DNA from: Fidelibacterota bacterium
GTDB lineage: Bacteria; Fidelibacterota; Fidelibacteria; Fidelibacterales; Fidelibacteraceae
Assembly (NCBI GenBank): GCA_021734505.1
Contig: JAIPIT010000011.1
Span: forward strand, 1 to 37,162
Reading direction: 5' to 3'
DNA: 37,162 nt
The notes below the pieces were generated by a model. That model searched no databases and had not been told where the DNA came from. It was given only the letters and a program-made list of their open reading frames with translations. The translations under genes and the position numbers were made by a program. Of this stretch, positions 12,056 to 37,162 are shown in pieces (the stretch's first letter is position 1; the number at the start of each line of letters is the position of its first letter).

Positions 12056-13999
12056 ATGAAGAAAAAATGGTTTCACAATAAGACAAGAATGATCATTCAA
12101 TTGCTGATCCTTGCACTTGTTGTCGGTACGCTTATCCTCGGTGCCGTAAAAGCAAATTTTAATCCGGATATGGAAAAATACTGCCCATTTGGCGGTCTTA
12201 TGTCTTTCGGATCAAAACTGAACATTGGTACAATGTCTTGTGCTATCAGTGAAACTCAGGTCTTTATCGGACTGGGTATTGCTCTGATGATCGTGCTTGT
12301 AGGTAAACTGTTCTGTAGCTGGATTTGCCCCGTGGGAACGGTTAGTGAATGGTTTAATAAAATTGGAGAGAGACTGGGTGTTTCATTCACCATAAAAGGT
12401 ATTGTTGATCGCATCCTGAGACTTGGAAAGTATGTGCTGCTTTTCTTTGCGGCATATATAACCATGAATAGTTCCGAATTATGGTGCAAGAAATTTTGCC
12501 CCTATTTTGGATCGGTCAGCGGATTTAATGTTGATACAATATTGCTATTCTCCCTTTTATCTATCGGAGCAGTCGTCATAGGCTCGATCTTTATAAAGAA
12601 GTTCTGGTGTAAATATGCCTGCCCTCTTGGCGCATTGAGCAATGTCTTTGCAAATATATTGATCACAGGCCCGATCATTATCATCTATGTGATCCTCTTG
12701 CTTGTTGGTGTTAAAATTCCATTGTTCTGGTTTCTGCTGGTTGTGATTGCCGCTTCGGCTCTGACTGAATCACTCAGATTAAAGCTCTTTTCGATCTCAC
12801 CTTTCAAAATTCGACGCGGTGAATCCTCATGTACCTCTTGCAAGGTTTGTGATACAAATTGCCCCGAAGGAATTGAAGTCAGCAAACAAGATCCGGTAAC
12901 TCATCCCGATTGTACCCTTTGTCTGGATTGTGTAAAAGCTTGTCCGGTAAATGATACTTTAAAAGTAAAAGGCGGCCGTTGGATGCCTCCGTTTGTATTG
13001 CTTATTGTCATTGCATTGGCATTGATCCTGGCAAAGCAATTTCCTATGACAACTCTGTCTGAACGATGGGGCACATACGAAACGGCAGATTCACTCAAAC
13101 ATATTGAAAAAGTCGTATTTGAAGATCTGATGTCCGTGAAATGTTTCGGTTCGGCAAATTCGATGAAAAACCGTGTATCACGCATACCCGGGATCCTCGG
13201 AATGGATGCTTGGGCATCAAAACATAAAGTGACCTTATATTACGATACGGCTACGTTAAGCGAAACAGACGTCAAACGTGCCGTGTTTACCCCATCACGC
13301 TATAATATTAGAAAAAGTGTAATGCTTGAAGATGCCCCCGAAACCCTTGTAGGCTATCGAGTGGGTGTATGGGAACTCTGGGATGGGACCGATAATGCTC
13401 ATATTTATCGTATGTTAATGGCTAACAAGGGCATTTACGGTTTTTCAACAGAATTCGGAGAACCGGTGTATGTAATCGTTTATCTCGATCCTCTAAAAGT
13501 TCAGCCTGAAGATATCAAGGCACTGATAGAAGTTACTAAATACGAATATGAACAAAAAGGTGAAAAGATCGTTCAAAAGGTCGATTTTAAGCTGGAAGGC
13601 AAGGGAGAGTATGTAGATACACTTACCTATTTGGATTACAGAAAACTGTTTTTCTCAGCTTATGATAGAACTTTCAATAACTATCGGAAACAGGATCCCG
13701 AAAAGATGAATGTATTTGAAGTGGGTTTCCCGAATGCGGAAAATTCTGAAGTCGTTCGTAAAATGAGCTACCTGACTTCCCACATGTCATTTGAACCCGG
13801 TGCGGTTCGCGTAAGCACTGAGTTTACGGATCACCCCGTATTACTGGTTTATTTTATGGCCGACAGTACCAACGGTGAAAACATTATGATGCATCTCGAG
13901 AAAGATATGCTGACATGTATGTTGCGCGACGGTTCAACCAAAGAATATGAAAATATCTTTGAGTTTGAAGAACCCTTTACGGTAAAACCTGCTAAGTAA
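12056..13999 (+). CDS. NapH/NosR-like membrane polyferredoxin with three HMA-like periplasmic repeats, 647 aa
   Basis: Five or six membrane segments carry paired Cys-Pro motifs of the NapH/NosR type: CPFGG (43), CSWICPVG (87-94), CKKFCPYFG (144-152) and CKYACPLG (185-192). Two classic 4Fe-4S ferredoxin motifs follow at 259-270 (CTSCKVCDTNCP) and 286-297 (CTLCLDCVKACP), then a transmembrane helix at 311-328. The remaining ~315 residues look like three beta-alpha-beta-beta-alpha-beta units at about 352-413, 432-493 and 551-615. Unit 1 matches the HMA metal-binding pattern (CFGSANSMKNRVSRIPGI), but with C363-x-x-S366 instead of CxxC; units 2 and 3 lack the site. It likely moves electrons through the membrane to a periplasmic partner. 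A terminator follows. The link to the nearby receptor/ABC locus is inference. Confidence 0.82.
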   Translation: MKKKWFHNKTRMIIQLLILALVVGTLILGAVKANFNPDMEKYCPFGGLMSFGSKLNIGTMSCAISETQVFIGLGIALMIVLVGKLFCSWICPVGTVSEWFNKIGERLGVSFTIKGIVDRILRLGKYVLLFFAAYITMNSSELWCKKFCPYFGSVSGFNVDTILLFSLLSIGAVVIGSIFIKKFWCKYACPLGALSNVFANILITGPIIIIYVILLLVGVKIPLFWFLLVVIAASALTESLRLKLFSISPFKIRRGESSCTSCKVCDTNCPEGIEVSKQDPVTHPDCTLCLDCVKACPVNDTLKVKGGRWMPPFVLLIVIALALILAKQFPMTTLSERWGTYETADSLKHIEKVVFEDLMSVKCFGSANSMKNRVSRIPGILGMDAWASKHKVTLYYDTATLSETDVKRAVFTPSRYNIRKSVMLEDAPETLVGYRVGVWELWDGTDNAHIYRMLMANKGIYGFSTEFGEPVYVIVYLDPLKVQPEDIKALIEVTKYEYEQKGEKIVQKVDFKLEGKGEYVDTLTYLDYRKLFFSAYDRTFNNYRKQDPEKMNVFEVGFPNAENSEVVRKMSYLTSHMSFEPGAVRVSTEFTDHPVLLVYFMADSTNGENIMMHLEKDMLTCMLRDGSTKEYENIFEFEEPFTVKPAK

Positions 14000-14019
14000 T
14001 TTAACATAACATATTTGTA

Positions 14020-14050
14020 GAGACGCGATTTATCGCGTCTCTTTTTTTTT
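14020..14050 (+). terminator. Rho-independent terminator after the polyferredoxin gene
   Basis: GAGACGCGA (14020-14028) and TCGCGTCTC (14033-14041) form a perfect stem followed by nine T. The TGTAGAGACGCGA start is typical of the mobile short palindromes seen elsewhere in the window, so the terminator may derive from one. Confidence 0.9.
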
Positions 14051-14081
14051 TATGCCGTTAATTTTCCCGGTTTTCCGGTAA

Positions 14082-14101
14082 CCCCGGGTTTAAACCCGGG
14101 G
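14082..14101. repeat. 20-bp perfect palindrome CCCCGGGTTTAAACCCGGGG
   Basis: A perfect dyad in the ffh upstream region. Degenerate relatives (CCCGGGTTTAAAGGTAC) occur at about 18502-18520 and 22012-22028 in the tRNA-Phe island region, so it belongs to a dispersed repeat family. Confidence 0.8.
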
Positions 14102-14213
14102 CTATCCCCATTCGCCATCAATTATTCCCGACCCCCGACCCCTGACAGCAGGTTCACAATTTTCTTGCCATAAGTTATTGATAAACACTATATTGATAAT
14201 GAACTAAAAACAT

Positions 14214-18359: not shown

Positions 18360-18655
18360 GCAAGTACAAAGATTAAAGGTAAAAGATAAAAGTAGGGGCA
18401 CAGCATGCTGTGCCCATTTGATACATATGATATAAAAATATATATTAGAAAGGGAGTGGCAGATGTAGGGGCTACTCGGGAGTCGCCCGTTTTTCACTGT
18501 GCCCGGGGTTTAAAGGTACTTGGGGGTTGAGTATTTTTGGAATAAAAAAAAGTTACCTCATAATGTTCACTTTAGGCTTACATTAAATAATTGACAATAA
18601 TAAAATATAACTATAAAATATCAACAAATTGTATTTAGAATAACAGGAAGGCAAA
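18360..18655. other. Gene-free left junction of the first island: palindromes and repeat blocks
   Basis: It contains the 20-bp palindrome GGGCACAGCATGCTGTGCCC (18396-18415). A second, degenerate GTAGGGGC-type palindrome (18464-18490) lies in a block (18451-18495) that recurs at 34994-35036. A CCCGGGGTTTAAAGGTACTTGG block (18502-18535) recurs at 22012-22050. An AAGATTAAAGGTAAAAGATAAAAGTAG block (18370-18396) has a close relative at 35118-35148. A sigma70-like promoter (18591-18619) precedes the next gene. No gene is seen. Confidence 0.6.
18591..18619 (+). promoter_or_regulatory. Candidate sigma70-type promoter of the island propeller gene
   Basis: A perfect TTGACA (18591-18596) and TAAAAT (18614-18619) are spaced 17 bp apart and lie 36 bp before the ATG at 18656. 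Confidence 0.5.
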
Positions 18656-20209: not shown

Positions 20210-21217
20210 TCAGTTTACCAAGTTTAATATCTGAGCATTGTTTTGAGGGCTCAGATTTTGTTTTCTACGCAATTTTATTGTTTCGATCTTGATCCTTTCG
20301 CGCCTGCTAAGCACTTCATGATGACGGCCGTAAAATACATCGGCCGGTGTAACGTTATTAATGGATTCATGGTACCGTTCATTGTTGTAATGATCCACAA
20401 ACTGTTTTAGTTCATTCTCCAGTTCCCAAGGGAAGTAATAAGTATCCAATTTCACGACATTTTTCATGGTCCGGTGATAGCGCTCTATCTTACCCTGAGT
20501 CATAGGATGGTATGGCGCACCACGGGTATGATCCATCTGCTTCTGGTCCAAATATTTTTTCAGATCTTTAGATAAATAAGACGGCCCGTTATCCGATAGC
20601 AACCTGGGTTTATGTTTGACCTTAACCTTATCTACACCGGTTTTCGCGATCGCCAGATCCAGAGTGTCTTTGACGTCTTCGGCCGTCATGCTACTTGTCA
20701 GCTTCCAACTGATGATATAGCGGGAGTAATCATCTAGCACTGAAGATAGATAATACCAGCCCCAGCCTACGATTCTAAAGTAGGTGAAGTCAGTCTGCCA
20801 CAGCTCGTTGACTCGCTTTGTAGGGTTCTTAAACTTATCTCCTGCGGACATTAATATGAAGTCCGGAGACGTGATCAGATCATAGGATTTAAGTATTCTG
20901 TATACTGAGGATTCAGAGATAAAGCACTCGTATTTATCTGTAATATGACAGGCCAGTTCACGTGGAGATTTATCCGGTTCTTCCAACGCGATATCAACCA
21001 CTTGTTCTTTTACGAAGTCTGGGATCCTGTTCCAGAAGCGCTTTGAGTTTGCAGGCCTTGTTGCCAGTCCGTCATAACCGTCTTCAAGATACCGCTGATA
21101 CCAGTTATAGAAGGTACTGCGATTGATCCCCAGTTCCATGAGTGTTCTTTTTGCCGATATTTCAGAGTTTTCTACCAGTTTGATTATCTCCATTTTTTCC
21201 GGTTGGGAGTATCTCAT
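20210..21217 (-). CDS. IS3-family transposase OrfB (DDE integrase), 335 aa
   Basis: An N-terminal helix-turn-helix (RTLMELGINRSTFYNWYQRY) is followed by the rve integrase core. The catalytic triad is D143 (WQTDFTYF), D209 (LLSDNGPSY) and E245 (QGKIERYHRTMK); the 35-residue spacing between the last two is the DD(35)E signature of IS3. The frame is open upstream of the ATG into orfA, as expected for OrfAB made by -1 frameshifting. It looks intact. Confidence 0.93.
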   Translation of the reverse strand: MRYSQPEKMEIIKLVENSEISAKRTLMELGINRSTFYNWYQRYLEDGYDGLATRPANSKRFWNRIPDFVKEQVVDIALEEPDKSPRELACHITDKYECFISESSVYRILKSYDLITSPDFILMSAGDKFKNPTKRVNELWQTDFTYFRIVGWGWYYLSSVLDDYSRYIISWKLTSSMTAEDVKDTLDLAIAKTGVDKVKVKHKPRLLSDNGPSYLSKDLKKYLDQKQMDHTRGAPYHPMTQGKIERYHRTMKNVVKLDTYYFPWELENELKQFVDHYNNERYHESINNVTPADVFYGRHHEVLSRRERIKIETIKLRRKQNLSPQNNAQILNLVN

Positions 21218-23259: not shown

Positions 23260-26200
23260 GTGATTCGCAGAACATACAGTTTAGTAATAATAATATTAAT
23301 TCTATTGAATATTCAATTAAATGCCTCTGGAATAAATGAGAAAAAACTGAATATTAAAACCGCATTTTGGAAAGGAAAGTATGTTAAATATATACCACAC
23401 CAAATTGCAGTTAAAATAAAACCTGATGCAAGTAAAAAGGAAATTAAAGAGTTATTTAGAGAAAAAAATATAATAGAAATTGTTCCTGTTGATAAATGGG
23501 GCTGGTTCTTGGCTGGAATAAACAAAGAAATTGATGAAATTTCTTTTATTAATGAATTACTAAGTAATCCAATAGTTATTTGTGCCGAATTAAATAATTT
23601 TGTTACAGCAGGATTTGAACCTGATGATCCATATTTTGATGGAACTAGTCCAGCAACTTATGCACATCAGTGGGCATTAAAAAATACTGGTCAAACCCCT
23701 CCTTCTGGTACTATTGGTGCTGATATAGATATAATAAATGCTTGGGATATAACTAAAGGGGATACAAGTGTAATAATTGCCGTTCTTGATTCAGGTATCC
23801 CTATGGAAAACGGCGTTTTATCACATCCAGATTTAAATAATTCTCAAAAAATATTATTAGGTGATGATTTTACCCCACTCATATATAGTAATGTAGAAGA
23901 TGAAACTGTAACTGATCATTGGGGACATGGAACACATGTTACGGGTATTATTGCCGCAGAAGCAAATAATGATACTGGTATAGCTGGTATTGCACATGGT
24001 TGTAAAATAATAGTTATGCAAGTATTTGAAGATGAAGGGGGTTTTGGAAGTTCTTATCTTTTTAAACTTGGTGTAGATTCTGTCGTTAATTATAAAATTA
24101 ATCATCCAAATACAAATTGTATTATAAATTTCAGTGGTAACTCCGGTAATCAAACCTATGTTACCGACGCACTTGATAATGCTGAAGAATATGAAGTCCT
24201 AATTGTTTCAATTGCTGGGAATGGCTTTTCAGATCCTGTAGAATATCCAGCTAAATTTTCAGAAGATTACTCAAATATAATTGCTGTTTCTTCAGTAGAT
24301 GCCGATGGTGTGTTCTCAGCTTTTTCTAACAAAGGAAGTCAGATCTGTGTAGCTGCACCTGGGGGATATGGGGGGGTATATGTAAATAACATTATGTATT
24401 ATAATACAACATCTAATTATGGGAAAAATATTTTTTCAACAACACCCAATTATAATTTTAATATGCAAAGTTCAACTGATGTAACGACATCCTATGGTTA
24501 TTTAGATGGAACTTCTATGGCCGCTCCAGTCGTTTCAGCAATAGCAGGGCTATTATTATCAATTAACTCGGATTTAACACCTTCACAAGTTAGAAATATT
24601 ATCGAGACAACTGCTGATGATGATGATGCGGGAGACGGTTTTGATAATTACTATGGACATGGAAAAATTAATGCCTATAAAGCTTTGAAATATACTCTAG
24701 AAAACTACGGTGGTACTTTAACTCAAAATATAACTGTTTCATCTGGAAGAACATTAGATATTAAAACGGGCACCACAGTAAATCTTAATTCATATACATT
24801 TACTTCTTCAGGTGGAACAATAATAGTTGAAAATGGTGCTACCATTAATCCATATATATGCCTTAAAAATGGTTCAGCAATTAAAGGATTATATTCAACG
24901 CTATCATCAGCATTGAGTGCAGCTAGTAACGGAGAAACAATTGAATTTGGTGCAACAACCACTCTTACTGGTGATGTTACTATTCCCTCAGGAGTGACAC
25001 TTACTATTAATAGTGATGCTTCAATAACAATGCGTGGAAATAAAATCACTACAACTTCTGGCACGATCAATGTTAATTACGATGCAGATATAAATCCATT
25101 TATAGTACACAGAGATCATTCTGACGATATTATTGGTTTATATCCAAATATAGATGATGCGTTTTCAGCCGTTTCAGCTGCTGCTGACCAAACAGTCGAA
25201 ATCAATAGTGCTGTAAGTGTTTCGAGTGATGATATAATAGTTCCTTTTGAAACTACTTTGGAAATAATGGACAAAGCAAATCTTTCAATTGATTATCCAT
25301 ATACAATTACAACGAATGGAGGTAGTATTGTATTAAGTGGAAGCCCTACCATTAATCCTGATATCAGAGCATTAAACTCAGGAACAATACAGGGTCTATA
25401 TCACTCAATATCAGATGCAATGTCCCAAGGAACTACTGTACAGGCTCGTGGTGGAACTCATACATTTGCTGATCATTATACCATAGCATCCGGGAAATTA
25501 CTTGGACTTTATGATGAAGCAGAAATAAAATTCCCCTCAGGTAAATATCTTTATGTAAATGGTGGACTGTATTGTGATGAAGCGACATTCACAAGCACGT
25601 CAGGGACATGGGGAGGCATTAAATACCAAAGTGGTTTTGGAACATTAAATGAGGCAACGATTACTAATGCCACTTATGGAGTCTACTGCAATTCCGCATC
25701 ACCAACCATTGAGTATAGTGATATTTCCAATTGCACTTATGGTGTTTATAACAGTGGCGGCTCGCCGGACATTTATAACAGCAGTATCAATGGCGGTACA
25801 TATGGCGTATATAATTATAATGGAAGTTATTATAATACAATTGCCGGTAATATGATATCCTCGACATATGGTATCTATAGCTACGCTTCATTATCACTTA
25901 TAAGGAATAATGAAATAACAAGCAGTACGATTGGTTTATACTGTGACAATAATTCATCCCCCGAATTATTGAGTGGCGGTAATTATTTTCATGGAAATTT
26001 TGTAATATTCGGTGTTTTTGCTGATAACAATTCAAGTCCCAGCATGGGAGTAGACTATTGCAGTGTCGGTGGGAATCACAGTTTTGTATATAATAACCTT
26101 GATATTGCCCTCGTTAGCGCCGGAACAAACTGTCACATATGGGCCCAAAACAACTGGTGGGGAACATCATCGCCCAATGCAGGTATGTTCGGCGGTAATG

Positions 26201-27204
26201 TGGAGTGGGATCCCTGGCTTACAAGTATGCCTCAATACACTATGCAATTATCCCCTGAGAACGAACTATTTGAAGAAAGTTTCAAATTATCTTCGGTTGC
26301 TCCCGATGATGGTGGTGAAGATCTGATCACTTATTACGACGACACTTGGTCGTTGGAACAAAAGATCAGGTTCTTGCGATATTTGGTAAATAATGATGAA
26401 GTACTTGGTGTTCCTGCTTTATGTAAAGATATCATTGAAACATATCCTTATTCACAAGAGGCCTTTACAGCACTTAATATCATTTACCAGATTACCAAAA
26501 AAAGAGATATTAAAAAAGATATAGACAAAGGATCCTTAAAAACCTATTTAATGGATTTTGAAGAGAAAAAGGGAAATAAAATGCTCAACGGTTCGGCCCT
26601 GCTGATGCTTGCAGGATTGGAAAAGAAAGAAGGGCTTTCACGGATCGATGTTGTTTATTCGGAAAATAAAAACAATTACCTGGGAGAATATGCATTGTAT
26701 CAAAAGTACATGTATTACTTCCATGAAGAGGAGGATTCACTGCAAGCTAAAAAAGTACTTGCTCTGATGGATGAGGTTTATCCTGATAGCAGGGTGACCT
26801 ATGAAGCCCATCTTCTATTAGGTGATGAGGTAATAACTCCTGGAGAATTCTATAGCCAACTTCAAAAGAATAATGAAGCAGAACAAATCGAATTTACATC
26901 TACGGATATCGATGAGATTCTTCCTGAAGAGTATGCTCTTAGCACTGCATATCCCAACCCATTCAACCCGAGTACGACCATTGAATTCGCATTACCGGTT
27001 CAATCAGATGTTGAGTGTAGTATCTATAATGTATCAGGTAACTTGATTAAGGAATACAGCTTAAATCAGAATGCTGGAATACATTCGATCGTTTGGGATG
27101 GCTCAAATGTATCAAGTGGTATTTATCTAATCAAATTCACAGCTGAATCTCAAGATGGTGCTGAAACCTTCGTGGATTATCAGAAGGTGACTTTACTTAA
27201 ATGA
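23260..27204 (+). CDS. Subtilisin-like (S8) protease fused to beta-helix, helical and T9SS sorting domains, 1314 aa
   Basis: It starts at GTG after AAGGAG, with a signal peptide to about residue 23. A propeptide-like region (45-115) is followed by an intact S8 domain (about 130-475): D177 (VLDSGI), H223 (GHGTHVTG), oxyanion N321 (IAGNGF) and S419 (DGTSMAAP). Three repeats of INP-x-GLY...A (about 525-735) lead to a right-handed beta-helix (about 776-985; YGVY, NNWWG). A helical domain (about 1020-1220) and a T9SS tail (YPNPFNPSTTIEF, VSSGIYLIKF, KVTLLK) complete it. Residues 776-1314 are closely paralogous to residues 315-855 of the protein at 31443. The N-terminal part is much more AT-rich than the C-terminal part, suggesting a chimera. 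The stop overlaps the next start (ATGA). Confidence 0.88.
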   Translation: MIRRTYSLVIIILILLNIQLNASGINEKKLNIKTAFWKGKYVKYIPHQIAVKIKPDASKKEIKELFREKNIIEIVPVDKWGWFLAGINKEIDEISFINELLSNPIVICAELNNFVTAGFEPDDPYFDGTSPATYAHQWALKNTGQTPPSGTIGADIDIINAWDITKGDTSVIIAVLDSGIPMENGVLSHPDLNNSQKILLGDDFTPLIYSNVEDETVTDHWGHGTHVTGIIAAEANNDTGIAGIAHGCKIIVMQVFEDEGGFGSSYLFKLGVDSVVNYKINHPNTNCIINFSGNSGNQTYVTDALDNAEEYEVLIVSIAGNGFSDPVEYPAKFSEDYSNIIAVSSVDADGVFSAFSNKGSQICVAAPGGYGGVYVNNIMYYNTTSNYGKNIFSTTPNYNFNMQSSTDVTTSYGYLDGTSMAAPVVSAIAGLLLSINSDLTPSQVRNIIETTADDDDAGDGFDNYYGHGKINAYKALKYTLENYGGTLTQNITVSSGRTLDIKTGTTVNLNSYTFTSSGGTIIVENGATINPYICLKNGSAIKGLYSTLSSALSAASNGETIEFGATTTLTGDVTIPSGVTLTINSDASITMRGNKITTTSGTINVNYDADINPFIVHRDHSDDIIGLYPNIDDAFSAVSAAADQTVEINSAVSVSSDDIIVPFETTLEIMDKANLSIDYPYTITTNGGSIVLSGSPTINPDIRALNSGTIQGLYHSISDAMSQGTTVQARGGTHTFADHYTIASGKLLGLYDEAEIKFPSGKYLYVNGGLYCDEATFTSTSGTWGGIKYQSGFGTLNEATITNATYGVYCNSASPTIEYSDISNCTYGVYNSGGSPDIYNSSINGGTYGVYNYNGSYYNTIAGNMISSTYGIYSYASLSLIRNNEITSSTIGLYCDNNSSPELLSGGNYFHGNFVIFGVFADNNSSPSMGVDYCSVGGNHSFVYNNLDIALVSAGTNCHIWAQNNWWGTSSPNAGMFGGNVEWDPWLTSMPQYTMQLSPENELFEESFKLSSVAPDDGGEDLITYYDDTWSLEQKIRFLRYLVNNDEVLGVPALCKDIIETYPYSQEAFTALNIIYQITKKRDIKKDIDKGSLKTYLMDFEEKKGNKMLNGSALLMLAGLEKKEGLSRIDVVYSENKNNYLGEYALYQKYMYYFHEEEDSLQAKKVLALMDEVYPDSRVTYEAHLLLGDEVITPGEFYSQLQKNNEAEQIEFTSTDIDEILPEEYALSTAYPNPFNPSTTIEFALPVQSDVECSIYNVSGNLIKEYSLNQNAGIHSIVWDGSNVSSGIYLIKFTAESQDGAETFVDYQKVTLLK

Positions 27205-27896
27205 TGAAATATGCCATATATGAAAGCATGTGTAGGGGACGCTCGCGAGCGTCCCTTACATTACCGAAGATGTTTTTTGTTATTGCCATAAGCGTTCTTC
27301 CCTTTCTTCTCCATGCCGAACATCCAGATTCAACCATTATGAAGCTGGAAAATCAGAAATCGAATATTGCATACGCCTCAAAGATATTTGATATCAATTT
27401 TGATTATCTCAAATCCATCATCTATGTTGAACGAACAAATAATTACAACTGGCAGGATGAGTATTTTGATGATTACCTTGCCAAGAAAGGACAGAACAGC
27501 TCCATCGGCTTTTGTCAGGTTAAGATGAAAACGGCATATTGGATAGAGTGTCTGTTGGTAGATAGTACATCCGAGTTTTATCCCGGGAAGAAATACGAAG
27601 GTATTCTGCCAGTAAGTCAGTCGCCTCAAGAGATCATTGATAAACTCGAAGATGATCGAACAAATCTTCTCTATGCATCTGCTTACATGAGAATCATTCA
27701 AAGCTACTGGGAAAGCAAAGGTTTCTCGATTGATGATAGAGTAGATATTATCGCCACAATCTTTTCTTATGGGATATTTAATAGATCTACAGGTGAGCCT
27801 TTAAAACCTAATGCCAATCCAAAGCCAAATTGGTTTGGGTCAGAAGCTCTAAAAGCATACAGGATGTTGCTCTTGCAACAACCCAACAAGAATTAA
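27201..27896 (+). CDS. Secreted lytic-transglycosylase-like protein, 231 aa (copy 1)
   Basis: The mature part has the order of motifs of the SLT/lysozyme-like fold: Glu77 in IIYVERTNN as likely catalytic acid, SSIGFCQVKMKTA (100-112) at the place of the GLMQ motif, DDRTNLLYASAYMR for the Ni..G..YL helix, and ATIFSYGIF for the AxYNxG segment. It would cleave peptidoglycan in the periplasm; the match is by pattern only. The signal peptide (hydrophobic core about 24-37) is preceded by CRGRSRASLT, encoded by a 30-bp palindrome. The start overlaps the previous stop (ATGA). The copy at 34007 is about 80% identical in the mature part. Confidence 0.72.
   Translation: MMKYAIYESMCRGRSRASLTLPKMFFVIAISVLPFLLHAEHPDSTIMKLENQKSNIAYASKIFDINFDYLKSIIYVERTNNYNWQDEYFDDYLAKKGQNSSIGFCQVKMKTAYWIECLLVDSTSEFYPGKKYEGILPVSQSPQEIIDKLEDDRTNLLYASAYMRIIQSYWESKGFSIDDRVDIIATIFSYGIFNRSTGEPLKPNANPKPNWFGSEALKAYRMLLLQQPNKN
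27231..27260. repeat. 30-bp short palindromic repeat inside a signal-peptide coding region
   Basis: The arms TGTAGGGGACGCTCG and CGAGCGTCCCTTACA contain the perfect 20-bp palindrome GGGACGCTCGCGAGCGTCCC. It belongs to the GTAGGGG-type family seen at 18396, 18464 and 35010. Here it is in frame and encodes the charged n-region of the signal peptide. Confidence 0.85.
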
Positions 27897-27952
27897 GGTA
27901 ATCTGGCCAAAACACTTGTAAAATAGCACTTTGCCACACCCTGAAAAACTTC

Positions 27953-28131
27953 GGGCACTTTTTGGGCACCTTTTTCTCAAAAACCCACATCATTACTACC
28001 TAAAACCCCTAAAAACACAAACTTCTCCGCGGTAGCCACATCTTGGTATACACAAACGGTATAACCCGCATGGATAAAGGGTCTGTACCAGACTCTTAAT
28101 CCGTTGGTTCTAGGTTCGATGGCGTACGATG
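27953..28131 (+). repeat. att-like junction with GGGCAC direct repeats and a degenerate tRNA-Lys(CTT)-like 3' fragment
   Basis: GGGCACTTTTTGGGCACC (27953-27970) has the same 11-bp spacing as the GGTCAC pairs at the tRNA-Phe junctions. Downstream, CAGACTCTTAATCCG then GGTTCTAGGTTCGA (28089-28119) resembles the anticodon stem (CTT) and T arm of tRNA-Lys, but the acceptor end is scrambled. It looks like the right end of an element that once targeted tRNA-Lys. Confidence 0.5.
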
Positions 28132-28154
28132 ACTCCCCTTTCTTGGGGAGTTTT
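28132..28154 (+). terminator. Terminator-like hairpin after the tRNA-Lys-like fragment
   Basis: ACTCCCC and GGGGAGT pair around TTTCTT, followed by TTTTG. Confidence 0.7.
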
Positions 28155-28259
28155 GTTATTGTGTGGAAAAGTGCAAAGAAGCTACAAATAATCATTCTTG
28201 ATAAATAAAAAGATTCAACATATATTAACTATCATTAATAATATTTGATAGGTGCTGCG

Positions 28260-28925
28260 ATGAAAAAATATTTTGTCATACTTTTTTGCATATTGATGTT
28301 CTCTTGTAGTGATCTCTTAGATATTATGAATCAACAGCACACAGCCCCCGAATTAATTACTAAACCTGTTACAGAAATATCTCTTTTTGGAGCAAAGGTT
28401 TCTACCCAAGTGACTGATACTGATGCAGAACTGATTGATGAGGCCGGTTTTTATCTGGGTTTTGAATCTGATACCAGTAGCTCTAATGATCTTAAGATAC
28501 TTTATGAAAAATCTGATAATGAAAGATATATCCCTTGGGATTTTTCATGTCAAGTAAGTGATTTAGATTCAAATACGACATATAGAGTAAAAGCATATGC
28601 TTTTTCAATTATGACTGGTTGTGGATATGGGAACTATGTTGCTTTTACTACTATGAGCAATGTCATCAAAGGGAAATGGTCATTTTACGATACTTATAGC
28701 CGAGGATATGAAGTATTTACTTTTAATAAAGACCTAAGCTTTATACTGGAAGAATTAGACAGCAATCTGCAAATTACGTTTACATCACCGGGAACATATG
28801 ATTTAAGCCCTGATAGCATATTCTTAAATCATGATAGAAGAACTGGTGAAAGATCACATTCGTATACACTAACTGATACCATTCTAAACATCGACAATAT
28901 TCCCTATATCAAACAAAACGAATAA
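28260..28925 (+). CDS. Fn3-like lipoprotein, 221 aa
   Basis: ATG 28260 gives a clean lipoprotein signal (MKKYFVILFCILMFSC); the upstream TTG at 28245 is not needed. Residues about 35-135 have the pattern of Bacteroidota fibronectin type III-like lipoproteins (EAGFYLGFES, SDLDSNTTYRVKAYAFS, GYGNYVAFTTM). A C-terminal lipocalin-like beta region follows (GKWSFYDTYSRGYEVFTFNKDLSF). It is the only gene between the tRNA-Lys-like fragment and the second tRNA-Phe fragment. Function is unknown. Confidence 0.78.
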   Translation: MKKYFVILFCILMFSCSDLLDIMNQQHTAPELITKPVTEISLFGAKVSTQVTDTDAELIDEAGFYLGFESDTSSSNDLKILYEKSDNERYIPWDFSCQVSDLDSNTTYRVKAYAFSIMTGCGYGNYVAFTTMSNVIKGKWSFYDTYSRGYEVFTFNKDLSFILEELDSNLQITFTSPGTYDLSPDSIFLNHDRRTGERSHSYTLTDTILNIDNIPYIKQNE

Positions 28926-29039
28926 CTGCAAATATTGTACGTACAAGTAATGAAGACTGTGATAATCAAATAATGTCATACATTTTATAAATATTGTCCT
29001 AAATCCCTGTAAAATCACACTATACTACACCTAAGAATT

Positions 29040-29144
29040 CACCGGTCACTTTTTGGTCACCTTGCCTTGTAACTTATTGAATATCAGCAGTGAACAGAGT
29101 ACTGAAAATCCCTGTGTCGCTGGTTCGATTCCGGCCGGAGCCAC
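29040..29144 (+). repeat. att-like junction 2: 11-bp direct repeats, 39-nt spacer, 44-bp tRNA-Phe 3' fragment
   Basis: GGTCACTTTTTGGTCACC (29044-29061), a 39-nt spacer closely similar to junctions 1 and 3, then the 44-bp tRNA-Phe 3' part (29101-29144), identical to 18283-18326. There is no tRNA 5' half. Confidence 0.87.
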
Positions 29145-29151
29145 CACCTAA

Positions 29152-29185
29152 AGCCCTGTAATAACATAGACTTACAGGGCTTTTT
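29152..29185 (+). terminator. Terminator after tRNA-Phe fragment 2
   Basis: AGCCCTGTAA and TTACAGGGCT pair around a 10-nt loop, followed by TTTTATTT. The stem is related to that after fragment 1 (CCCTGTAA). Confidence 0.75.
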
Positions 29186-29230
29186 ATTTCTACATCATTT
29201 ATATAGTAATATAACGAGAAACGGCGTTTT

Positions 29231-29263
29231 TGGACATTCATGGGCGCCATTTGGGCGCCGCAA
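29231..29263. repeat. Three 11-bp-period repeats on the left side of the third island
   Basis: TGGACATTCAT, GGGCGCCATTT and GGGCGCCGCAA start at 29231, 29242 and 29253. They lie about 90-110 bp after the tRNA fragment, like the triple at 21889. Confidence 0.55.
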
Positions 29264-29279
29264 TTATTATAGGGGAGAT

Positions 29280-30578
29280 TTATTTGATTAAAACCATTTT
29301 CCTTGAGTATGTACTATTGCCATTCTCAAGTCGACTAATATAGATCCCCGAGCTATAATTAGAAGCATTCCATTTTACTTCATATTGCCCGGCCTGATAA
29401 AAATCATCTATAAGAGTTTCTACAAGTTGTCCTGAAATATCATAAATACTGAGTTTTACCTTTGATTCAGAAGGTATTGTGTAATTGATCGTGGTTATAG
29501 GGTTGAAGGGATTGGGATAATTTTGCATCAAAGCCACTTCGTGAGGGACCGGATCTTCTTTTATACCGACTCCGTCGCGCTGCCATTTGAGAAAGGGATA
29601 ACCGTCATTATATTCAGGATCGATCACCCATGTGTCAATGAAGTTCCAGCTGGAATCTGTATAAGTAGACTGCATCTTCATTTCTGTCGTTGTTTTGCCT
29701 GTTCCGCCAGCGCTGGCGGCCAAATCGGTTGTATCCATGTCCCAAAAGCTGTTTTGAATGACAGACCCCTGGTTCGTACCGATCAAACCACCAGCAATTC
29801 CTTCGTCTTCGGACAAAGAAATATCAGTTATACCCGCGCGGTAACAGTTTTTAACGATCGTGTTGATACTCTCACCAATCAGTCCCCCATAATTATAGGA
29901 AGATCCCGAATAAAATGACTGAACCATATGGATACCCAGGGAATAACAATTACTGATATGGGAATCTTTACTGTAAGCAACGATCCCGCCTGATGTAATG
30001 CTTGATACAAAAGCATTGATCCCGGTTAAACCCATAAGATCAGTATATGAATCCCGTATCGTGGTTGAGCACGCCATACTGACAATACCACCGGCAATTC
30101 TTCCGGAAATATAGCCTTTTACTGAGCAGTTGATGATCGTTGACATAGAATCTTTTCCCACTAAACCACCAACGTAATGTCTGCCTATTAGATTTTGAAA
30201 ACGTATATGAATATTTTTTATAGTAGCATTATGTGTGTATCCGAATAAACCACTATAAAGAAGATTGGCAGATGATATGATCATGATAAAATCCAATGAA
30301 TATCCCTGTCCATCATAAGAACCGTAAAAGCAACTGTCGGAGCTTACCCCGATAGGTAAATAACCTAGAGAGCTACTGCTTGAAGCATCAATGTCATCTG
30401 TTTGAATGTAATGTTTTCCCCAATTCGCCGAATCTGTTGAAATCCAATGGAGATTTTCTAGGGTAGCAATCTGATAGGGGTCGCTTTCCGCGCCGCTGCC
30501 CAAGGCTGGGGGCGTTGCCGTCTGGGCAAACAAAACAGAAATTGATAAAAATATAAAGACTTTATATAATGTTTTCAT
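29280..30578 (-). CDS. GLUG-motif secreted protein with T9SS sorting domain, 432 aa
   Basis: The signal peptide ends near LFAQT, residue 20. The body is a beta-solenoid of GLUG type, starting with the typical PYQIATLENLHWIS...HYIQTDDIDAS entry, then LFGYTHNATIKNIHI, GGLVGKDSMSTIINCS, GGIVAYSKDSHISNCYS, GGLIGESINTIVKNCY and GGLIGTNQGSVIQNSFWD. The conserved close TEMKMQSTY...WNFIDTWVID...GYPFLKW is present. The T9SS tail is YPNPFNPITTINY...YSSGIYISRL...RKMVLIK. GLUG proteins are adhesin-like surface proteins. It is divergent from the following secreted-protein operon. Confidence 0.88.
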   Translation of the reverse strand: MKTLYKVFIFLSISVLFAQTATPPALGSGAESDPYQIATLENLHWISTDSANWGKHYIQTDDIDASSSSSLGYLPIGVSSDSCFYGSYDGQGYSLDFIMIISSANLLYSGLFGYTHNATIKNIHIRFQNLIGRHYVGGLVGKDSMSTIINCSVKGYISGRIAGGIVSMACSTTIRDSYTDLMGLTGINAFVSSITSGGIVAYSKDSHISNCYSLGIHMVQSFYSGSSYNYGGLIGESINTIVKNCYRAGITDISLSEDEGIAGGLIGTNQGSVIQNSFWDMDTTDLAASAGGTGKTTTEMKMQSTYTDSSWNFIDTWVIDPEYNDGYPFLKWQRDGVGIKEDPVPHEVALMQNYPNPFNPITTINYTIPSESKVKLSIYDISGQLVETLIDDFYQAGQYEVKWNASNYSSGIYISRLENGNSTYSRKMVLIK

Positions 30579-30710
30579 TGTTATTTACTCCCAAAAACTT
30601 ATTTAGCTACAAATTATAAGATTAAAGAATTAATATCAAAGGAAAAATTATTTGATATAAAAAATTAATATAGTAAATTAATAGAAGAATATACAAAATA
30701 TGGGGTAAAT

Positions 30711-31433
30711 ATGAATCGTAAACTTAAAGGTATTTTTTTGTGTAGTTTGTTTTTAATATTATCTGCGAAGAATTCTAATGACAATATAGGGTCGGAGATA
30801 AATGGAGGGAAAGAACATATAACATATATTGAGATGTTAGAAGTTTTGCAAATACAAAATGAGGAAATACAAAAAATGCCAACAGAACAACTTTTAAACA
30901 CCTGTATAGATTGCCCTTTAATTTTTAAAATTTGGTTGAACTCGAGCGTACAAGAAGGAGTAGAAATTTTAATTAATGAATATAATGGTTTGCAAGAATT
31001 ACTAATACGTAAAGATGCCGGGACGGAGCTGTTAAAAATCTATATGAAAATGGATCCACATGCTTTTTATCATGATTGGAATGATATACAAAGAGGCAAG
31101 TATACATTTAAATTTGCTTTCGTTGAAATGCTTCTAGCTCAAGAAACTATAATTTCCTTATTAACTAAAGAAGAACGTTTATCATTACTTCAAGAATTAT
31201 TGAATAAACAAAAGCATATGTCTGAATACCCTATATATGATATAAAAAACCAAGAATCAAATATTTTCTTAATTGGGAAAATAATTCAAAAAGACTATAG
31301 TGAATATATGTTTTCTTTATCGTCTGAACAAAATGATAAGTTACAGTATTTTTTAAGAAGAGGTTCACATTCAATAATAGGTACTAAAGAAATGATATTG
31401 TACATGGTCAATAAAATTATTAATGAATTATAA
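30711..31433 (+). CDS. Small secreted helical protein upstream of the cysteine-hydrolase-like gene, 240 aa
   Basis: A signal peptide is followed by an all-helical sequence with EMLEVLQIQNEEIQKMPTEQ, TCIDCPLIFKIWL and YTFKFAFVEMLLAQETIISL. I do not recognise a named family with certainty, though similar exported proteins starting M-TE-LL--C--YPL are, from memory, common in Bacteroidota. It ends 9 bp before the cysteine-hydrolase-like/beta-helix gene and shares its low GC, so the two probably travel as a pair. A protective inhibitor or chaperone of that enzyme is one possible role; nothing in the sequence proves it. The equivalent place before the S8 gene holds a BNR lipoprotein instead. Confidence 0.65.
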   Translation: MNRKLKGIFLCSLFLILSAKNSNDNIGSEINGGKEHITYIEMLEVLQIQNEEIQKMPTEQLLNTCIDCPLIFKIWLNSSVQEGVEILINEYNGLQELLIRKDAGTELLKIYMKMDPHAFYHDWNDIQRGKYTFKFAFVEMLLAQETIISLLTKEERLSLLQELLNKQKHMSEYPIYDIKNQESNIFLIGKIIQKDYSEYMFSLSSEQNDKLQYFLRRGSHSIIGTKEMILYMVNKIINEL

Positions 31434-31442
31434 GAAGCATTT

Positions 31443-34010
31443 ATGTTAAAAAAGAAAAGAATAATACAGATTATTTTAATTATTTTGTTATATCAAAATT
31501 TGGGAGCACAATATATCCCTATAGATTTATTTACACCTCGTGGAACATTAATTGGTAATACTTATTATTGCAATACAGATTATAATTCAGTCACAATAGC
31601 AATTCTAAATGAAATGTATCAAAATGACTATCCTCTTGCAGAAATAATTGGAAATTCATCTAGAAAATATAATTGTCATGGATATGCTTGGCATATGATT
31701 GAAGGTGGGGCTATAGATAACCCTATTTGGATAGGTTTAACTTCTGCAGGAAATACATATAAGTATTGGGAAGACGAAAGCTATAGCGTAGTAGATGTTC
31801 AATATGCTACTATTGTTGATTATTCGATTGATCACTCTGCAATAACTACCGATACAATAGAAATACTTATTTCTAAATGGGGCGATGGTCCGTTAATGAG
31901 ACATGGTACAACTGGTTATGGTACAATTTCTAAATATTTACGAAAAAACCCTGCAACACCATCAGATTTTATTACTGTTTTAGAAGCTATTAACGATGCT
32001 GTTCCTAATCAAATTGTACATGTTGATAGCGGTGTGCCTGTACTTTCATGTAATATATCAATATCAGAAAACATTACATTAAAAATTCATTCAGGGGCAA
32101 TTTTAGAACTTGATACCTGTTCAATAATTTTTCAGGAAGGTTCATTATTCATTGCTACAAATGCAGAAATAAGCCCCTATTTCTGTTTAAAAGAAGGAAT
32201 GAATGTAAAAGGACTGTATCCCTCCTTTTTGACTGCATTAAATGTAGCTACATCTGGTCAAACAATTGAAATTGGTGATAATGTTTCACTGACAACAAGT
32301 ACAACCATCCCTTCGGGCATTACCCTTAAATTTGCTACCGGTAAATCATTAAATACTTCAGTATCATTAAACGCGACGAATGTTACGTTTACAAGTCTGT
32401 CGGGAACCTGGGGTGGTATTAAATATAATAGTGGCAGTTCAGGAACATTGAATAATTGTACTATAAGCAATTCAACTTACGGTGTCTATTGTAATTCCTC
32501 ATCACCTACCATTGAAAACAGTAATATTTCAAATTGTACCTATGGAGTGTACAATAATAACGGCTCGTCGGATATTTATGATAATAATATCGTGAGCGGC
32601 ACCTATGGCATATATAATTATAATGGAAGCGGCTATAATACAATCTCCGGAAATACCATATCTTCATCATACGGTATCTATAACTATGCTTCATCATCGA
32701 TCATCCGGGATAATGAAATCACCAGCAGTACGGTTGGTTTATATTGTGATAATTACTCTTCACCCGAGCTTTTGACAGGAGGGAATTATTTTCATGGCAA
32801 TTATGTGATCTTCGGTGTTTATGCCGATAATAATTCAAATCCGAGCATGGGAGTTGCATGGTGCATGCTAGACGGTGAACACAGTTTCGTATACAATGGT
32901 TTTGACATTGCCCTGGTCAATGCCGGAACGAACTGTTCCATATGGGCCGAGAACAACTGGTGGGGAACCTCGTCGCCATACGCGGGGATGTTCAGCGGAT
33001 CGGTTGATTGGAATCCGTATTTACAGAACATGCCGACATACAGCATGCAGCCGAATCCGGAAAATGATATTTATGACCAGACATTTAACAGGGTTGCAGT
33101 TCAGACTGATGACCAGACAGATAACGATCTGATCAACTATTATGATGAAGCCTGGTCCTTAGATCAAAAGATCAAGTTCCTGCGGTATCTGGTTCATTAT
33201 AACGAAGCGACGGGTGTACCCGCCTTATGTAAAGAAATCATTGAAACCTATCCGTATTCCCCGGAAGCATTCACGGCGTTGGATATCATTTATCAGGTTG
33301 TAATAAATGAAAACGCCGCAAAGGATATCGATAAAGAATCCCTCAAGATCTATTTGAAAACGTTTGAAGAGAAAAAGGGAAATAAAATGCTCAACGGTTC
33401 GGCTTTGCTGATGCTGGCCGGACTGGAAAAGAAAGAAGGACTTTCAAGGATCGATGCCGTTTATACCGCGAATAAGGATAATTATCTGGGGGAATATGCA
33501 TTATATCAGAAGTTCATGTATTATGTTCATGATGAGGAAGATATGGAGACAGCCAAATCGGTACTTGATTTGATGGATGAGGTTTATCCTGAGAGCAGGG
33601 TGAGTTATGAAGCCCATCTTCTTATCGGTGATGAGGTGATATCCCCCGAAGAATTCTACAGCCGTCTTCAAAAGAAAACCGAAGCAGAACAAATGGAACT
33701 TGTATCCACCGATATCGATGAGATCATCCCCGCGGAGTACGCGCTTGATCCGGCAGTACCAAACCCCTTTAATCCGAGTACGGCTCTTGAATTTGATCTG
33801 CCGGTCCAATCGAAAGTTCAATGTGGTATATATGATGTGAGAGGTAACCTGGTCAAGGAATACAGCTATGAGCAGAATGCCGGGACCTACTCGATCGTGT
33901 GGGATGGCTCAAATGTATCAAGTGGTATTTACTTGATCCGGTTTGTTGCTGAGGCGTCTGATGGAACTGAAACGTTTGTTGATTATCAGAGGGTGACGTT
34001 ACTTAAATGA
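31443..34010 (+). CDS. Papain/CHAP-like hydrolase domain fused to beta-helix, helical and T9SS sorting domains, 855 aa
   Basis: After a signal peptide (to about 22, LGAQ), residues about 35-170 carry YNCHGYAWH (Cys78), VDYSIDHSAI (His131) and ISKWGDGPLMRHG. This is the Cys-His layout of NlpC/P60- or CHAP-like amidases and peptidases, assigned by pattern only. A NAEISPYFCLKEG...GLYP segment, a right-handed beta-helix (about 315-525; repeated YGVY/YGIY, NNWWG), a helical domain and a T9SS tail (VPNPFNPSTALEF, VSSGIYLIRF, RVTLLK) follow. Residues 315-855 are closely paralogous to 776-1314 of the S8 protein, whose N-terminal enzyme is unrelated. GC rises from very low in the 5' part (7 of 60 bases in 31441-31500) to 27 of 60 in 33181-33240. 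The stop overlaps the next start (ATGA). Confidence 0.82.
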   Translation: MLKKKRIIQIILIILLYQNLGAQYIPIDLFTPRGTLIGNTYYCNTDYNSVTIAILNEMYQNDYPLAEIIGNSSRKYNCHGYAWHMIEGGAIDNPIWIGLTSAGNTYKYWEDESYSVVDVQYATIVDYSIDHSAITTDTIEILISKWGDGPLMRHGTTGYGTISKYLRKNPATPSDFITVLEAINDAVPNQIVHVDSGVPVLSCNISISENITLKIHSGAILELDTCSIIFQEGSLFIATNAEISPYFCLKEGMNVKGLYPSFLTALNVATSGQTIEIGDNVSLTTSTTIPSGITLKFATGKSLNTSVSLNATNVTFTSLSGTWGGIKYNSGSSGTLNNCTISNSTYGVYCNSSSPTIENSNISNCTYGVYNNNGSSDIYDNNIVSGTYGIYNYNGSGYNTISGNTISSSYGIYNYASSSIIRDNEITSSTVGLYCDNYSSPELLTGGNYFHGNYVIFGVYADNNSNPSMGVAWCMLDGEHSFVYNGFDIALVNAGTNCSIWAENNWWGTSSPYAGMFSGSVDWNPYLQNMPTYSMQPNPENDIYDQTFNRVAVQTDDQTDNDLINYYDEAWSLDQKIKFLRYLVHYNEATGVPALCKEIIETYPYSPEAFTALDIIYQVVINENAAKDIDKESLKIYLKTFEEKKGNKMLNGSALLMLAGLEKKEGLSRIDAVYTANKDNYLGEYALYQKFMYYVHDEEDMETAKSVLDLMDEVYPESRVSYEAHLLIGDEVISPEEFYSRLQKKTEAEQMELVSTDIDEIIPAEYALDPAVPNPFNPSTALEFDLPVQSKVQCGIYDVRGNLVKEYSYEQNAGTYSIVWDGSNVSSGIYLIRFVAEASDGTETFVDYQRVTLLK

Positions 34011-34699
34011 TAGACTTATTAAATGATAATAAATGTAAGGGACGGTCTAGACCGTCTCCTGCATTTTTAGGTCGGTTTATTTTATTGTTCCTGTCTATAA
34101 CAGGCTTTCTTCTTGCCGAAGATCCGGATACGACACTGCAAAAGTTAAAAGAGCAGTCAGTAAATATTGAATATGCCTCTAAAACATTTGATATTGATCC
34201 GATGAAGCTTAAAACTATTACTTACGTAGAACGTACAAATAACTACGACTGGCGTGATGAATACTTTGATGATTATCTGGCTAAGAAGGGGCAAAATAGT
34301 TCTATTGGTTTCTGCCAAGTGAAGATGAAAACGGCTTATTGGATTGAATGTCAATTAGCTGATAGTACATCTGAGTTTTATTCCGGGAAGATGTACGAGG
34401 ATATCCTACAGGTTAGCCAGTCTCCACAAGCGATCATTGACAAGCTTGAAGATGATAGGACAAATCTTCTTTATGCATCAGCTTACATGAGGATCATTCA
34501 AAGCTATTGGCAGAGCAGGGGATATTCGATTGATGATCGCGTAGATATTATTGCCACGATATTTTCTTATGGAATATTCAGCAGAGCAACTGGTGAGCCT
34601 TTAAAACCTAATGCCGACCCAAAGCCGAATTGGTTTGGAGAGCAGGCATTAGATATCTATAAGATGTTCACTTTAAAGCATCCAATAAACCACGAATAA
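34007..34699 (+). CDS. Secreted lytic-transglycosylase-like protein, 230 aa (copy 2)
   Basis: Paralogue of 27201-27896, with the same motifs: Glu75 in ITYVERTNN, SSIGFCQVKMKTA, DDRTNLLYASAYMR and ATIFSYGIF. The block from DEYFDDYLAKK through AYWIEC is identical in both. The signal peptide (hydrophobic core about 24-36) is again preceded by CKGRSRPSPA, encoded by a diverged 30-bp palindrome. ATGA overlap with the upstream gene keeps the pair translationally coupled. It probably acts on peptidoglycan, perhaps to open the wall for the partner or to attack a neighbour; the target is not visible. Confidence 0.72.
   Translation: MIDLLNDNKCKGRSRPSPAFLGRFILLFLSITGFLLAEDPDTTLQKLKEQSVNIEYASKTFDIDPMKLKTITYVERTNNYDWRDEYFDDYLAKKGQNSSIGFCQVKMKTAYWIECQLADSTSEFYSGKMYEDILQVSQSPQAIIDKLEDDRTNLLYASAYMRIIQSYWQSRGYSIDDRVDIIATIFSYGIFSRATGEPLKPNADPKPNWFGEQALDIYKMFTLKHPINHE
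34034..34063. repeat. 30-bp palindrome inside the second signal-peptide coding region
   Basis: The arms TGTAAGGGACGGTCT and AGACCGTCTCCTGCA have a perfect 16-bp core GACGGTCTAGACCGTC. It lies at the same codons as the palindrome at 27231, but the stem sequence differs with pairing kept. Confidence 0.82.
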
Positions 34700-36646: not shown

Positions 36647-37162
36647 TTAAGAAGCAAGTATAAAATCTGGATTTTTTAGTGCCGAGTTAAGCGCAACGAT
36701 CATTTTTCTCATAACGGCAGTTAAAGCAACTTTGCTTGGACAGTGATTTTCATTTACCAAACGTTGGTAAAATATTTTTAAATGTGGGTTGTGTGTGATC
36801 GCACATACAGCCGGCATATAAAGAGCTGTTCTTACTTTAGCTCGTCCTCCATAAATAAACCGCTTACCTCTAAATCCGCCACTATCTCTGTTGTACGGAG
36901 CAAGTCCGGCTAGAGCGGCAGCTTCTTGTTTGTTTAGATGTCCGATCTCCGGTAAATGAGCTAATATTGTTAAGGCGGTTATAATTGATATGCCGCAGAT
37001 CTTTGTCATAGCTGAAATTTTGTTGCTTAAGCTTTGATCATCTACCCATAAGATTTGAAGTTGCTCTTCGATCAAAGCTATCTGTTGATTGAGTTGATCT
37101 AAATTCTCTTCAATCAACTTTGTCATAAAATCATCTGTCGACATGTCTAAACGATTTTGCTC
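36647..37162 (-). CDS. IS110-family transposase, C-terminal 171 residues (runs off the right edge)
   Basis: The frame is open to the window edge; the ATG at 37144 is internal, since EQNRLD continues upstream. A coiled coil (LIEENLDQLNQQIALIEEQL) is followed by the transposase_20 domain: ICGISIITALTILAHLPEIG, then AALAGLAPYNRDSGGFRGKR with the conserved serine, and GGRAKVRTALYMPA. The N-terminal RuvC-like DEDD domain lies outside the window. The stop codon abuts the degenerate tRNA-Phe fragment, so this element marks the right boundary of the island array. Confidence 0.92.
   Translation of the reverse strand, partial: EQNRLDMSTDDFMTKLIEENLDQLNQQIALIEEQLQILWVDDQSLSNKISAMTKICGISIITALTILAHLPEIGHLNKQEAAALAGLAPYNRDSGGFRGKRFIYGGRAKVRTALYMPAVCAITHNPHLKIFYQRLVNENHCPSKVALTAVMRKMIVALNSALKNPDFILAS

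Follow-up and report, generated by a model that had tools for sequence, protein, structure and literature searches.

Why should two paralogous genes carry, at matching codons just past their starts, palindromes of the kind found in dispersed repeats, and translate them into protein? The question is raised by a stretch of 37,162 nucleotides from a Fidelibacterota bacterium (contig JAIPIT010000011.1), referred to in its whole length as the window. An initial annotation had proposed that either two independent insertions had occurred or the hairpin is under selection as RNA. The features concerned are the following.

23260–27204, plus strand: cargo gene 1, a subtilase (PF00082) with a C-terminal module and a T9SS (type IX secretion system) type A sorting tail (PF18962, TIGR04183).
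27201–27204, plus strand: ATGA stop/start overlap of cargo gene 1 and enzyme gene 1.
27201–27896, plus strand: enzyme gene 1, a predicted exported lytic-transglycosylase-like protein of 231 aa, named from a structure model.
27231–27260, plus strand: palindrome 1, REP-like, an RNA hairpin with no adjacent U-tract, codons 11–20 of enzyme gene 1.
31443–34010, plus strand: cargo gene 2, NosD-like repeats, with C-terminal module and T9SS tail as in cargo 1.
34007–34010, plus strand: ATGA stop/start overlap of cargo gene 2 and enzyme gene 2.
34007–34699, plus strand: enzyme gene 2, paralogue of enzyme gene 1, 230 aa.
34031–34066, plus strand: palindrome 2, REP-like, within the signal-peptide codons of enzyme gene 2, with a terminator-like score at 34039–34058.

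We confirmed that palindromes are present at matching codons of the two paralogues (27231–27260 and 34031–34066), as had been reported; they start 30 nt (palindrome 1) and 27 nt (palindrome 2) past the ATGs at 27201 and 34007. Palindrome 1 (TGTAGGGGACGCTCG joined to CGAGCGTCCCTTACA) forms 14 of 15 Watson-Crick pairs plus one G-U, and palindrome 2 (AAATGTAAGGGACGGTCTA joined to TAGACCGTCTCCTGCATTT), whose arms overlap centrally, has two G-U and one A-C in its arms. Both translate to C-(R/K)-G-R-S-R-x-S, which, again as annotated, is read as the positively charged n-region of a signal peptide. Hairpin strength at both starts far exceeds that of synonymous-codon shuffles (z of 8.5 and 5.4). The GC-rich hairpin of palindrome 2 (34039–34058) runs directly into a U-tract, and palindrome 1, with a single T in the next 8 nt, has none. 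An Rfam search of the window returned a tRNA as its sole match and no known RNA family at the palindromes. The further claim that the two stems differ while pairing is kept stands for one pair only, a true compensated change against the family consensus (G-C to C-G, in copy 1), but not for the central G-C to T-A change of copy 2, which lies in the hairpin loop of the RNA.

The two genes belong to a cargo-plus-partner module that the window repeats, each cargo having its own lytic-transglycosylase-like gene, and both enzyme ORFs overlap the upstream cargo stop by 4 nt. The cargo proteins share 64% identity across 679 alignment columns in their C-terminal parts and differ at their N-termini (subtilase versus other); since like C-termini stand behind unlike N-termini, it was the whole module that was duplicated. 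The enzyme proteins had no match in Pfam or NCBIfam, and a sequence search against solved structures gave nothing significant. An AlphaFold2 model (pLDDT 75) aligned with the lytic transglycosylases MltC, MltE and MltF and the muramidase Tse3 at VIA-align Z of about 10–11, with weak Foldseek E-values (best 0.2), and the predicted overall fold matches solved lytic transglycosylase/lysozyme-like members. The motifs V-E-R-T and N-S-S-I-G-F-x-Q are invariant, the loop being poorly modelled, and are compatible with a putative catalytic Glu and with predicted peptidoglycan cleavage. The window also holds an IS481/IS3-like transposase (20210–21214) and an IS110-family transposase fragment (36647–37141), both on the minus strand.

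The palindromes are copies of a repeat of the form GTARGGG...CCCYTAC, 28–30 bp long, that several genomes of the genus carry in a few copies each. Searching for its 20-nt core, GGGACGGTCGCGACCGTCCC, at up to three mismatches, we found nine copies in the window genome (G000, 2 Mb), seven in G005, seven in G004, six in G008, three in G009, two in G002 and one in G003; the reversed pattern, used as control, had none in these genomes at the same threshold. The description of a dispersed, mobile-type family holds. The genome-wide mapping that the initial annotation had proposed found the nine copies to lie for the most part close to gene 3′ ends; among 34 copies, the majority are no more than about 65 nt from a gene 3′ end, with fewer near 5′ ends. 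A stricter core gave no copies in other genera of the bacterial family, and GTAGGGG taken by itself is not significantly enriched in the window (4 matches versus 1.84 expected). Symmetric stem variants are common across the copies, and paired differences between the two window copies alone are therefore not local covariation. Intergenic copies, read in the same frame, also give C(K/R)GRSRPSP or similar, so the C(K/R)GRSR peptide is encoded by the element and its frame, and convergence of the peptide is ruled out. Neither the shared peptide nor the compensated stems can thus be taken for a sign of two insertions.

Other palindromes were also seen. Two further GTAGGGG-type palindromes (GTAGGGGCACAGCATGCTGTGCCC and GTAGGGGCTACTCGGGAGTCGCCC) lie 3′ of a tRNA at 18391–18490 of the window, and two other types adjoin at 13980–14110 (AGAGACGCGAT..ATCGCGTCTCT and AACCCCGGGTTTAAACCCGGGGCTA). 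Genes for Y1_Tnp transposases are present in eight of ten genus genomes; in these incomplete genomes, no GTAGGGG-family palindrome lay within about 1.5 kb of the Y1 genes at any of 12 inspected loci. The IS200-like Y1 transposase genes L031 (G000:C112) and L030 (G004:C133) sit amid several CCCCGGCTTAAAAGCCGGGG or CCACGGCTTTTAAGCCGTGG palindromes, which together with the Y1 genes make a candidate repeat-plus-transposase system separate from the GTAGGGG family.

How the two window copies arose can be approached through G005, in which an orthologous subtilase cargo (L052) precedes an enzyme gene (L002) that has the same variant of the element at the same codon. Copy 2 and this orthologue also have the flanking codons DNKCKGRS in common, and with element, frame and flanking codons shared, one ancestral insertion is the simplest account; two independent insertions at identical codons are not needed. 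Trees of the mature enzyme genes gave no resolved branching of the five genus copies, and when the upstream gene was added the within-genome copies grouped together, suggesting gene conversion. In the window genome, a dispersed REP-like repeat would have been captured at the junction, probably once and ahead of the duplication of the cargo-enzyme module, and retained afterwards.

Homologue searches through the window phylum, the class of an Ignavibacteria genome and the Calditrichota phylum gave 39 usable genes, as DNA mostly from MAG contigs; the homologues are partly related, and the counts that follow are not fully independent. A T9SS-tail gene precedes the enzyme in nearly all 39, with unrelated hairpins lying anywhere from the cargo stop to about codon 20. 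Junction hairpins were found in Neomarinimicrobiota, Calditrichota, Ignavibacteria and one Bacteroidetes MAG, unrelated in sequence and often within signal-peptide codons (for example, AGTGCCGGAAataTTCCGGCACT then TATTTTTTT in L072 of Ignavibacteria and AGGCGGGGATTtgttgcAATCCCCGCCT in L075 of Calditrichota). Between the cargo stop and enzyme position +75, a strong hairpin (dinucleotide-shuffle z about 3.9 or more) is present at 26 of 38 homologous junctions; none was seen at about six of the 38 (L099, L100, L103, L116, L127 and L079), and the upstream-stop finder may have overlooked some junctions (L113). At compact junctions the hairpin lies inside the enzyme ORF and begins about 9–31 nt past the cargo stop, and at spaced junctions it precedes the enzyme start, in most cases 5–60 nt past the cargo stop. 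The initial annotation had named as refuting evidence any homologues with a normal signal peptide and no palindrome at this locus. Two gene copies of the genus, L003 (G004) and L014 (G005), do have normal signal peptides and lack the GTAGGGG palindrome, but both carry an unrelated hairpin there, of the AACAGGCG...CGCCTGTT type.

The hairpin is particular to these junctions when compared with other tight same-strand gene pairs of the same loci, of which 2 of 46 have one, versus 14 of 21 enzyme junctions (Fisher p about 1e-7; enzyme start codons were chosen by rule, and control ORF calls and starts were mechanical). T9SS-tail genes lacking an enzyme partner, collected from three genomes, have hairpins with z above 3.5 in 17 of 29 cases, most of them at +4 to +57 past the stop, a distance like that at enzyme junctions. 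One T9SS-tail gene (L159, G000:C31, minus strand) is followed by an ORF at +1 with a strong hairpin across its first codons; a start past the hairpin is on offer there (MKKGYILF). In L002, L003, L014, L126 and L129, no ATG, GTG or TTG stands between hairpin and hydrophobic region, so the hairpin is translated in these genes and a translation start after it is ruled out; such a start is possible in L001 (ATG at +69), L098 and L125.

Of the two proposals made for this locus, selection on the hairpin as RNA is well supported, by synonymous shuffles, covariation, frozen codons and wobble polarity. When the first 90 nt of each enzyme gene were scored for hairpins against synonymous shuffles, with internal windows of the same genes as controls, z exceeded 3 in 14 of 39 first windows versus 3 of 189 internal ones (Mann-Whitney p 9e-7; Fisher p 9e-10), and in 12 of 33 versus 3 of 159 after near relatives were thinned. 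The motif G-[YFHC]-[LVI]-x-[ITV]-P recurs in the signal peptides of L075, L126, L129, L105 and L113, its Gly and Pro codons being both arms of a covarying hairpin. In five rows of this G-x-L-x-I-P type with a common stem, 7 of 11 pairs had changed on both sides, which none of 500 shuffles equalled, although these rows were picked for one shared register, which makes the count an illustration and not a blind test; the signal vanishes when the register is slid by 1–3 columns, and the outer pairs covary while the encoded amino acids vary. The hairpin codons are also synonymously frozen: between L001 and L002 all 11 codons of the hairpin region are identical versus 69 of 141 elsewhere, and between L003 and L014 all nine versus 58% elsewhere. 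Within each 2-kb locus the hairpin ranks with the best-conserved 30-nt windows (0.97–1.0 versus 0.62 overall). Imperfect pairs, read on the coding strand and with both kinds given the same score, comprise 19 G-U versus 2 A-C (composition-corrected p 0.0015; thinned p 0.006), an excess which argues that the coding-strand RNA is the functional form. The junction therefore has a hairpin in a kept position, under selection beyond that on the protein sequence and with the polarity of the coding-strand RNA.

As to what the hairpin does, its presence at the same distance in partnerless T9SS-tail genes makes a 3′ hairpin of the cargo gene the simplest reading, and we think it rather probable that the cargo transcript ends in this hairpin, which would serve as a leaky terminator or a barrier to decay, and that the enzyme gene starts ahead of it. 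An RNA hairpin would mark the 3′ end of the cargo-gene transcript; with the enzyme gene starting at or just past the cargo stop, its first codons would be read through the hairpin, and these codons would become the n-region of the enzyme signal peptide. Where a U-tract follows, the hairpin would act as a leaky intrinsic terminator, for which the U-rich codons of the hydrophobic region could serve as U-tract, and in E. coli terminators lying up to 100 bp into an ORF are efficient (PMC4824070). Among the in-ORF hairpins, no more than about half are followed by at least five T in the next 8 nt; because the other half, palindrome 1 included, lack them, simple intrinsic termination does not cover all of them, and U-rich tails are expected anyway because those codons encode the hydrophobic region. 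The malE-malF intercistronic hairpin is a REP. Without a U-tract, as at palindrome 1, the hairpin would shield the cleaved cargo mRNA at its 3′ end, as is reported of that REP, and palindrome 1 may be a decay barrier instead of a terminator. Intercistronic hairpins give malE-type differential decay, protecting the upstream mRNA (PMC5927463). Most likely the hairpin would lower enzyme expression relative to cargo; termination, decay protection and a purpose in dosage are what we infer from its place and conservation.

Alternatively, one could envision a translation-dependent attenuator, in which a ribosome re-initiating at the ATGA would block the hairpin and the enzyme would be transcribed only if the cargo is well translated. 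It could be built into the signal-peptide codons themselves, the Arg/Lys-rich n-region as stem and the Phe/Leu/Ile-rich hydrophobic region as U-tract, so that coupling to cargo translation would gate enzyme transcription and mobile palindromes could replace the native hairpin. The tight overlap, and a hairpin starting about 9–31 nt past the stop in compact junctions, would suit such a device, and E. coli ribosomes do repress terminators a few bp past a stop, with efficiency growing with distance (PMC4824070). However, a terminator 30 bp past a start codon retained most of its efficiency under translation (PMC4824070), spaced junctions carry the hairpin without any overlap, and the U-tract is missing from some hairpins, so that we regard the attenuator, in the general and in the built-in form, as doubtful. 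It also seems unlikely that the hairpin chiefly controls enzyme translation, whether by blocking independent initiation and admitting coupled ribosomes only or by slowing elongation for export: its position 10–60 nt past the start in compact junctions, overlapping signal-peptide codons, would allow this, but in spaced junctions it precedes the start, 5–60 nt past the cargo stop in most, and T9SS-tail genes without an enzyme partner have hairpins at equal distance.

Neutral debris of a mobile repeat, palindromic through DNA processes (transposition, template-switch correction) and tolerated in signal peptides, would account for the dispersal of the family and for its symmetric variants at numerous sites, and translation has been described both for REPs and for Rickettsia palindromic elements (PMC3733652). 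We nonetheless consider it improbable, given that other lineages have unrelated, non-repeat hairpins at the same place, that wobble is biased toward the coding strand and that the hairpin codons are synonymously frozen. That the hairpin arises only as a consequence of the amino-acid sequence of the signal peptide and has no role as RNA is very improbable and already largely refuted; G-x-L-x-I-P is indeed found in several signal peptides with its Gly and Pro codons as stem arms, but the hairpins exceed synonymous-codon shuffles, their outer pairs covary though amino acids vary, their codons are synonymously frozen, and those of spaced junctions are untranslated. The evidence favours one old insertion in the window lineage together with selection on the RNA, the latter acting also on unrelated hairpins that are not mobile repeats. 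Judged from sequence, the actual pattern is a conserved hairpin at the cargo/enzyme junction, and the mobile palindrome is one form that it takes.

Parts of this arrangement have counterparts in known systems. The malE-malF REP and the puf hairpin likewise separate a gene whose secreted or structural product is abundant from a downstream gene that is needed less; they differ in that the hairpin described here is often in translated signal-peptide codons, is represented by unrelated hairpins across phyla and is known from DNA only. GTAG-tagged REPs are palindromes of 20–40 bp that start with GTAG or GTAA and lie mostly just 3′ of ORFs, occasionally within them, most N-terminal cases being suspected untranslated (Di Nocera et al. 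2013; PMC3733652). The window family is also a short repeated palindrome found predominantly downstream of ORFs, but in the copies listed it is paired to both ends with no unpaired GTAG tag, it is low in copy number with no Y1 transposase beside it at the 12 inspected loci, and its member L002 is without an alternative ATG, GTG or TTG start. Rickettsia palindromic elements are palindromic repeats that lie inside protein genes and are translated in the gene's own frame (PMC3733652), as in the window enzyme genes; those elements occupy varied genes and positions, whereas the junction hairpin keeps one fixed position and selection acts on non-repeat sequences as well. Plasmid W48, with an engineered intrinsic terminator 30 bp past the start of ORF2 of an operon (Li et al. 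2015; PMC4824070), is synthetic, and the signal-peptide hairpin would be its natural, conserved counterpart.

These junctions offer a clear natural case, in several phyla, of RNA structure and signal-peptide coding using the same bases, in which the U-rich stretch for a signal peptide's hydrophobic region can also serve as the U-tract of a terminator. The hairpin appears to have been replaced repeatedly, among others by a dispersed repeat, which illustrates one route by which a selfish palindrome may be captured into a function. For the two-gene modules themselves, composed of a T9SS cargo and a predicted peptidoglycan-cutting partner, it suggests that stoichiometry is important.
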